A DNA stretch of 32,580 bases, from positions 1-32,580 of the forward strand of contig JAFAVP010000070.1 of assembly GCA_019242395.1 (NCBI GenBank). Reading direction: 5' to 3'. The notes below the pieces were generated by a model that made no database searches, was not told the DNA's origin, and saw only the letters and a program-made list of their open reading frames with translations. Shown here in pieces: positions 7,293 to 20,228 of the stretch (position 1 is the first letter of the stretch; each line of letters begins with the position of its first letter). Both the position numbers and the translations under genes were made by a program. The stretch is from Alphaproteobacteria bacterium. GTDB taxonomy: Bacteria > Pseudomonadota > Alphaproteobacteria > Micropepsales > Micropepsaceae.

Positions 7293-7390
7293 AACTCAGA
7301 TTGGGATCGATTTGCCGCCGCCTATGGGTTGACTTTGGGCTTTCGCTGGCTAAGTTCCCCGCCCTTCAGGACATTCGAGGACTTCACAAA

Positions 7391-7558
7391 ATGGCAAAGC
7401 CGACCACGGCCAAAATCCGGCTCAACAGCTCCAGCGACACGGGCTTCTTCTACGTGACGAAGAAGAACACCCGCACCATGACGGAAAAGTTCTCGGTCAA
7501 GAAGTACGACCCCGTGCTGCGCAAGCACGTCGAGTTCAAGGAAGGCAAGATCAAATAG
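7391..7558 (+). CDS. rpmG: 50S ribosomal protein L33 (cysteine-free type)
   Basis: [55 protein letters not shown], full-length L33; ends TAG. Confidence 0.98.
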
Positions 7559-7581
7559 ATCTGTGCCACCGCTGTGAGACC

Positions 7582-18040: not shown

Positions 18041-19006
18041 ATGCGAGAGGCACACAAGCCCGGTCGCGGGCGGATCTACAACAATATCACCGAAACAATC
18101 GGTGACACACCGCTGGTTCGGCTGAACCGTATGGCGAATGACGCTGGGGTGAAGGCCGAAATTCTGCTCAAACTGGAGTTCTTCAACCCCATCAGCAGCG
18201 TGAAGGACCGCATTGGCGTCGCGATGATTGAGGCCATGGAAGCAAAAGGTCTCATCTCGCCTGGCAACAGCGTGCTCGTCGAACCGACTAGCGGCAACAC
18301 AGGCATCGCGCTCGCCTTCGTCGCGGCCGCCAAAGGATACCGCATCATCGTGACGATGCCGGAATCAGTGTCGATAGAGCGTCGCAAGATGCTGGCACTG
18401 TTTGGCGCAGAATTGGTGCTCACCGAAGCCGCAAAGGGCATGCGCGGCGCCATCGCGCGCGCCCACGAAATCATCGCCACCACCCCGAACGCTGTCATGC
18501 CACAGCAATTCGAAAACCCTGCCAATCCAGACATTCACCGCCGCACCACGGCAGAAGAAATCTGGCGGGACACAGACGGCAAAGTGGATGTGGTTGTTTC
18601 CGGTGTAGGAACCGGTGGCACCATCACTGGGGTCGGACAGGTGCTCAAGGCTCGCAAGCCCTCGCTGCGCATGATCGCGCTGGAGCCAGAAGATTCGGCC
18701 GTGCTGTCAGGCGGCGATCCGGGGCCGCACCCGATTCAGGGTATCGGCGCGGGCTTTGTCCCCGCTATTCTGGACCGTGAGGTCATTGACGAAGTGATCA
18801 CAATTCCGGCCGCTCTCGCCTTCGAAACCGCCCGCAAGGTAGCGAAGCTTGAGGGTATCCCGGTGGGCATTTCCTCGGGTGCGGCCGTCGCCGGCGCACT
18901 TCAGGTCGCGACGCGCCCAGCGCTGGAGGGAAAAACCATTGTCACCATCATTCCCTCCTTCGCTGAACGCTATCTCTCCACGGCACTGTTCGAGGGCATT
19001 GCCTAA
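18041..19006 (+). CDS. cysK: Cysteine synthase A (O-acetylserine sulfhydrylase)
   Basis: [66 protein letters not shown]. Confidence 0.97.
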
Positions 19007-19159
19007 CACTGATTCTTTAAGCAGGCACGGGATCATCCGCACGCCCGATTCTCCGCCCATTCTCCACGCTGTAATGTTGAGCTCAGACCATCTGCGCCGC
19101 GCGAGCCCCTCATTAAATCTCGTTCTCCACCTGTTCCCAAGCGGTAAGACGGGTGTATC

Positions 19160-19745
19160 CTCACCTCCGTCCGGCTCTAGGAGGGACGTTGTCGGCCGTC
19201 TTCAACGTGAGCCAGGACCGGCGCTGACAGACACCGTGCGTAAACGGCGCACAGGAGACGTCAGGGTCGTACGGATCGAGCGCCGGTGCATCGCGACCTC
19301 GACGGAACCGATGTACCGGAATCGGCAGACGTGCCGGTTTGCGAAAGCCACATGAGGACCCGCGAGGGTGCCGTGCACGGCCCGCACCGCAGAGACAGCA
19401 GGGCGCCACAACCGATGCTCCCGGAAGCCCGCGGATTTCCGCGATGCCAGTCGAAACGGGAGACGGCGAAGGCTTAACACTCCTGCCGAGCGGGGCCAGC
19501 AAACGAGTCGAACCGATGCGGCCGAAAACCGCTGGGTGCGGGAGGCCTTCGTGGCACCCTTTTTTCCGCCTGACCGGCGGGCGCCGCTTGAAAAGAGCGG
19601 CCAACGTGCGCAAGGCCGTGAGGGCTTCCCGCACCGGCCCTCCAGGGGCCAGCAGGCAAAACGCGGAATGGCAGATTCGCGCGAAGGGCGGAGCATTGGT
19701 TCTGATCTCAGGCTTGGCGGCGCGGCTTGACCAGACCCGCCGTTT
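19160..19745 (+). ncRNA. Candidate large structured RNA (family not recognised); boundaries and strand provisional
   Basis: About 775 bp gap with no credible CDS. Hand-found helices include: GGCTC(19173-77)+ACGTTG(19186-91)/CAACGTGAGCC(19203-13); ACCGGCGCT(19217-25)/AGCGCCGGT(19279-87); GTGCG(19236-40)/CGCAC(19248-52); GCATCG(19288-93)/CGATGT(19309-14); AATCGGCA(19320-27)/TGCCGGTT(19332-39); CTCCCG(19418-23)/CGGGAG(19457-62) enclosing CGCGG(19430-34)/CCGCG(19439-43); terminator-like stem 19534-19559 + T6; then five abutting hairpins 19566-19681. Confidence 0.45.
19534..19565 (+). terminator. Intrinsic-terminator-like hairpin inside the candidate RNA
   Basis: GGGTGC(19534-39)/GCACCC(19554-59) followed immediately by TTTTTT (19560-65). 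Confidence 0.55.
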
Positions 19746-19781
19746 GTTCTTCACATCCCCGCCGCCTCGAAGGGACCGACC

Positions 19782-20228
19782 ATGTCGCTGATCCTCGAAT
19801 CCTCCTACTACGCGTTTGCGTTCTACGCCGCGATAAACGCCCTCATCATGCTGGTTCTCGGCATGCTGGTCACCCGGGCCCGTGTGAGAACGCAAACCGA
19901 CATTGGCGACGCTGGAAAACCGGAGATGGCCGGCCCCCTCAGGGCACACGGCAATAACACCGAATGGACGCCGATGGCGCTCCTCCTCATGTGGGTGCTC
20001 ACGGGGATGGGCTTCTCGAATTCCGGCCTCAGCGCGTCCATTTGGGTGATCCAAGGAATGGGCGTGACGCTCACACTCGGCCGGATATTGCACGGCATCG
20101 GCATTACGCGCTCGATCCGGCCTTCGCCACTGCGCTTTGCCGGCATGATTCTGACCTGGATTTCATACGTCATCGGCATCGTCGCAATTCTGTGGCTCGT
20201 CTTCACCTCCGGCACGGCTGCGACCTGA
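19782..20228 (+). CDS. MAPEG-family membrane protein
   Basis: Four hydrophobic segments; GPLRAHGNNTEWTPMALLLMWVLTG and TLGRILHGIGITRS typical of bacterial MAPEG proteins; AAGGGA RBS upstream. Confidence 0.88.
   Translation: MSLILESSYYAFAFYAAINALIMLVLGMLVTRARVRTQTDIGDAGKPEMAGPLRAHGNNTEWTPMALLLMWVLTGMGFSNSGLSASIWVIQGMGVTLTLGRILHGIGITRSIRPSPLRFAGMILTWISYVIGIVAILWLVFTSGTAAT

Follow-up and report, generated by a model that had tools for sequence, protein, structure and literature searches.

A family of large structured RNA genes in an alphaproteobacterial genus, with a diverged member between cysK and a MAPEG gene

Results

Between cysK (18041-19006) and a MAPEG gene (19782-20228), the window, i.e., the whole 32,580-nucleotide stretch of DNA that was analysed, contains a gap of 775 bases (19007-19781). 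An earlier note on this DNA had seen no ORF with recognisable motifs there, and this was borne out, as neither a Pfam-matching ORF nor a codon-position signal was found in the gap. The pairs MAPEG-pmbA and dut-cysK are each kept in relatives, but apart from each other, and the two closest relatives carry a glutathione transferase gene (named from its sequence) directly after cysK. As the gene order in the relatives differs, the RNA described below occupies a rearranged junction in the window genome. At the protein level the gap did not match any remnant of the glutathione transferase gene. BLAST searches with the gap against its own genome, the family, the class, plasmids, phages and E. coli yielded only short chance matches and a conserved block upstream of MAPEG. 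This block (TTGACC...TTGTTCTTCACATCCC, 19725-19774, forward strand) lies outside the RNA and is common to two relatives, G042 (86% identity over 49 bases) and G056 (79% over 52 bases), in both of which it is located directly 5′ of MAPEG and the RNA is absent from that place. It is probably the promoter or operator of MAPEG. Another apparently empty gap of the window, at 7390-7560, contains an ordinary gene which we take, by eye, to be rpmG (ribosomal protein L33).

For the cysK-MAPEG gap a large undescribed structured RNA had been proposed at 19160-19745. The RNA gene does lie inside this interval on the forward strand, but its extent had to be corrected to about 19165-19640. It is a diverged family member that spans 19169-19635 (approximate ends about 19165-19645), as given by the match of a covariance model of the 5′ domain (R3) at 19169-19269 and by a 3′ hairpin at 19530-19640, whose own model (R1) finds family members. 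The 5′ domain comprises P1 (GUCCGGCUC, 19169-77, with GAGCCaGGAC, 19209-18; overall 19169-19218), P2 inside P1 (GGGACG, 19183-88, with CGUCUU, 19197-202), P3a (CGGC/GUCG, 19219-22/19266-69), P3 (CUGAC/GUCAG, 19224-28/19260-64) and P4 (19234-40/19248-55). P1, P2, P3a, P3 and P4 are found in the minimum-energy fold of the window, agree with covariation in the family and fall within the R3 match. The P4 loop UAAACGG (family: NUAACGA) and the P2 loop UUGUCGGC (family: CCGG-type) have both diverged. The minimum-energy fold, which was computed before any relatives were known, contained the same P1, P2, P3 and P4 with its UAAACG loop, and the P3 pattern CGGC-G-NNNNN...NNNNN-G-GYCG is common to the window fold and the family.

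The central domain (19270-19529) is variable in length and sequence. It would be closed by the long-range helix P0 (CCGGCG, 19218-23, with CGCUGG, 19530-35; overall 19218-19535), which is predicted in group D (CGGCG following P1, CGCCG preceding the 3′ hairpin), is possible in almost all members (in L134 as CCGGGUG/CACCCGG) and is probable in the window RNA, where it includes one G-U pair, is not favoured by energy and competes with P3a as an alternative pairing. P5 (GCAUCG, 19288-93, with CGAUGC, 19514-19) and the central hairpins are assigned tentatively, and so is a conserved joiner (GCGGCCGAAAA, 19518-28). Group D exhibits at the corresponding place CUUC/GAAG and CUCC/GGAG, followed by the same joiner GCGGCC(C/G)AAAA. 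A stronger helix, absent from the earlier list of stems, is the 21-bp stem (19535-55/19615-35) of the 3′ hairpin (19535-19635), which is backed by R1 matches and covariation and encloses apical hairpins at 19566-80 and 19583-601 (GCCGCU-UGAAAAG-AGCGGC). All stems that had been listed are present in the sequence, but several of them are alternative pairings, and the family supports a different set. The 9-bp stem ACCGGCGCT/AGCGCCGGT (19217-25/19279-87), for instance, competes with the family-backed P3a and P3, and the partner of GCATCG at 19288-93 may be 19514-19 rather than 19308-13.

Compared with shuffled sequence, the folding energy of the whole region was lower (z of -2.3 to -3.1), and that of the 3′ hairpin, a region chosen after the fact, reached a z of -4.2. 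Several other windows of the contig, coding ones included, are similar, with z of -2.8 to -3.8. As the values are only moderately beyond the contig background, folding energy alone proves nothing.

The family was found with covariance models, whereas BLAST of the gap had revealed no conservation of the RNA in relatives. R1 was built from the 3′ hairpin of the window alone, with the single sequence entered twice, and matched three genus mates: G054 at one place, G060 at five and G040 at two. The aligned matches keep the outer stem, in G054 also the apical GCCGCY-UGAAAAG-RGCGGC hairpin, and G060 and G040 have several nearly identical copies, situated in different contexts. A BLAST search with one G060 copy added further members in about nine genomes; a match in G067 did not have the appearance of a member. 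The members have a 5′ domain and the 3′ hairpin in common and measure ~350-430 nt in total. Several copies in G060 and G040 (L082-L088) are followed downstream by a REP-like palindrome (GTCATGGTGAGGTGCTCCGC..GCGGAGCCTCGAACCATGAC). A model of 19213-19345 with a partly wrong structure (R2) gave only weak matches and was discarded.

R3 was built from twelve 5′ domains, not including that of the window, which were aligned in a register set manually by inserted N letters. It identified 33 places in 17 of the 96 genomes of the bacterial family, which are draft assemblies and at least in part MAGs. All of these places belong to the window's genus, of which 69 genomes were sampled, so that the RNA family is present in 17 of them and in the window genome, with one to six copies each. 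The matches take in the diverged groups D and E, which were outside the training set, and a single marginal match came from G414, which belongs to a different bacterial family of the same class and in which no 3′ hairpin was recognised. In the window R3 yielded one match (19169-19269, forward strand, 33 bits, E 5.7e-5, a rough value after a short calibration). Among 276 kb of unrelated decoy loci, the best scores were 24 bits for R3 and 15 bits for R1. In most members the two models match in the same order and with similar spacing as in the window. The family 5′ domain (P1-P4, a CCGG-type P2 loop and an NUAACGA-type P4 loop) is thereby recognised in the window via R3, and the 3′ hairpin of the window agrees with that of the family, which starts with C-GC-(C/U)GGGYGYGG and in several subgroups contains an apical hairpin with a GAAAA loop. 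The window genome showed one R1 match, and its RNA is apparently a diverged single copy that could be decaying; the R3 search of this genome was insensitive and missed even the known match in the window.

Neither the window nor representative members gave any Rfam 15 match at the gathering threshold or anything credible within the RNA in E-value mode, and the novelty proposed in the earlier note therefore stands. Outside the new RNA, a sub-threshold match to whalefall-1 RNA was seen at L097 (2790-2842; 23.8 bits, E 0.012). The phage, plasmid and viral collections searched yielded no family match, and the patterns on viral contigs were nothing specific. In the G076 copy (L133), the 3′ hairpin is interrupted by unrelated sequence, possibly derived from an IS element.

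The caveat that short stems arise easily by chance, and that covariation is needed, was addressed by compensatory changes in P1-P4 and in the 3′ hairpin. The hand-registered alignment of the twelve 5′ domains, window excluded, exhibited two-sided changes at 16 of 33 pairs and a covariation score of 0.476 (0.198 when shuffled), and P3 has such changes at all five of its pairs in the family. The R3-fitted alignment scored 0.623, compared with 0.225 for shuffled and 0.07-0.16 for slid controls, and the R1-fitted alignment of the 3′ hairpin 0.445 (shuffled: 0.151), with two-sided changes in 26 of 36 pairs. As both fitted alignments lean to their own structure and each includes two or three spurious opposite-strand matches, a structure-blind test matters. 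Ten group-D sequences, themselves retrieved by R3, were aligned without regard to structure, and their de novo fold was the same P1, P2, P3 and P4, with two-sided changes at 13 of 28 pairs. The family fold of P1-P4 and a 3′ hairpin is hence backed by extensive compensatory changes.

A perfect alphaproteobacterial LexA (SOS) box, GTTCTCCACCTGTTC, is located at 19122-19136 on the forward strand, 33-47 nt 5′ of the RNA start. By shuffling, 0.69 such boxes are expected per 32.6 kb, i.e., about 0.002 per 100 bases. The motif GTTCN7GTTC is the LexA motif of the Caulobacter SOS response (PMC12700426). Perfect GTTCN7GTTC boxes also precede each of the four members of group B whose upstream DNA could be read, and most of the recA promoters examined in the genus contain GAACN7GAAC, the same box on the other strand; in the window genome, the recA promoter contains GAACAAAGCATGTAC instead of a perfect box. 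A possible -10 element, TATCCT (19156-19161, forward strand), is suggested by its position only, and group C has TATAAT at a similar distance from P1. Going by the box, we infer that LexA controls the window RNA. The box is confined to the window and group B, and what lies upstream is different in groups A, C and D and in further ones; SOS control is therefore not family-wide, and while likely in the organism of the window it is lineage-specific. A (T)ATCCCC element occurs ~25-50 nt upstream in groups C and D and in the G414 copy. In group D it is part of a conserved inverted repeat (GGGGATA-N4-TATCCCC or, in variant form, GTGGATA-N4-TATCCAC) about 35-60 nt 5′ of the RNA (L127, L128, L129, L131, L132, L142, L143 and L145), which is possibly the operator of some regulator.

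Discussion

The RNA in the cysK-MAPEG gap belongs to a multi-copy family that is tied to no neighbouring gene or ORF and whose architecture is conserved, with P1-P4 in the 5′ domain, then a central domain that varies, and finally the long 3′ hairpin. With its covariation, the absence of an Rfam match and no coding potential, this family agrees with the large undescribed structured non-coding RNA that had been proposed. The contexts of the copies are unrelated apart from a few loci, with flanks otherwise common only to close relatives, and according to heuristic gene calls the downstream gene lies on the same strand in ~13 cases and on the opposite strand in ~16. No small ORF, either ATG-initiated or hydrophobic, is conserved or shared among the group-B members or the window, and the alignments of members are full of frame-breaking indels. 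The unrelated contexts, the use of either orientation and the lack of a conserved ORF therefore indicate stand-alone RNA genes rather than leaders or mRNAs. At two loci from different subgroups, L130 (G052) and L138 (G021), a convergent gene downstream encodes similar proteins (57% identity), which by eye we take to be TsaA/TrmO-like, and this suggests an old shared locus.

We consider it probable that the window RNA is a stand-alone RNA gene of ~470 nt from a new family of large structured non-coding RNAs, with its own promoter, an action in trans and, in this organism, repression by LexA. Transcription would start at P1, and the RNA, alone or as an RNP, would have a structural or regulatory role. 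Under LexA repression it would be made after DNA damage in the window organism and in group B, and in some genomes whole gene units appear to have been duplicated together with their upstream DNA. It is conceivable, albeit rather unlikely, that such a damage-induced multi-copy RNA acts as an RNA assembly (e.g., as oligomers via the CCGG loop) or as a ribozyme-like machine; the self-complementary CCGG loop of P2 is only suggestive of oligomerisation.

A similarly modest chance is given to the idea that a non-autonomous mobile element, moved by the machinery of another element, is transcribed into this RNA and that the structure serves transposition or retrotransposition. The near-identical copies in different contexts in G060 and G040 would fit with this, as would a presence that varies inside the genus and the situation in G017 and G021 (L125, L147), where the intergenic region beside a copper-transport ATPase gene contains the RNA in both genomes, but with its orientation to the flanking genes reversed between them. 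However, no transposase or reverse transcriptase was recognised among the neighbouring genes examined, the units repeated in G060 extend into the DNA on both sides of the RNA, as duplications of whole genes would, and related species have at least three loci in common. Moreover, no Rfam match to group I or II introns or HEARO was obtained, and the fold has been retained across a large divergence.

That the gap is merely a GC-rich rearrangement scar which folds by chance is very unlikely. The rearranged gene order and the modest z-scores would be in line with it, but two independently built models recover the domains of the family with correct order and spacing, and for the family as such it is refuted by the covariation and decoy controls. 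The idea of a complex leader RNA, raised as the other option in the earlier note, did not hold up. A riboswitch or attenuator of MAPEG acting in cis appears highly improbable even though the RNA and MAPEG share a strand, with the RNA upstream, and a small hairpin at about 19560 is followed by a T-run, as relatives without the RNA keep MAPEG's own conserved upstream block and the genes downstream of other copies differ, about half of them on the opposite strand. Type I toxin mRNAs are of similar size and fold strongly, in which they can be likened to this multi-copy RNA with its LexA box, and a hok- or tisB-like structured mRNA of a small toxin would fit both SOS control and multiple copies, but the lack of a shared ATG-initiated or hydrophobic ORF and the frame-breaking indels leave this hardly any probability.

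Several known systems come closest to the family. OLE, ROOL and GOLLD are large "ornate" bacterial RNAs of several hundred nt with multiple domains and a largely unknown function (PMC12286853). The new RNAs resemble them in size, multi-domain build, long-range helices and non-coding nature, but do not match them in Rfam, and differ in being chromosomal, multi-copy and found in one alphaproteobacterial genus. As in LexA-controlled alphaproteobacterial genes, including recA of the genus, a perfect box lies a short way 5′ of the RNA in the window and in group B; unlike in these genes, the product is a large structured RNA and other subgroups have no such box. HEARO/omega RNA and group II introns are likewise large structured RNAs with several copies per genome, yet for the new family no Rfam match to them was found and no reverse transcriptase, HNH or transposase gene was recognised beside its copies. 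Literature searches found no paper describing the family, which is new and without a detectable relative, although stand-alone structured non-coding RNAs as a general kind are already known.

Large bacterial RNAs with covariation-backed folds are uncommon, and those known earlier have proved to be ribozymes, RNP scaffolds or RNA cages. A single genus here offers a rich natural alignment, as the genomes concerned have one to six copies each and the subgroups differ widely. The LexA box in two lineages furthermore provides a testable hypothesis, induction by DNA damage, which most orphan RNAs lack.
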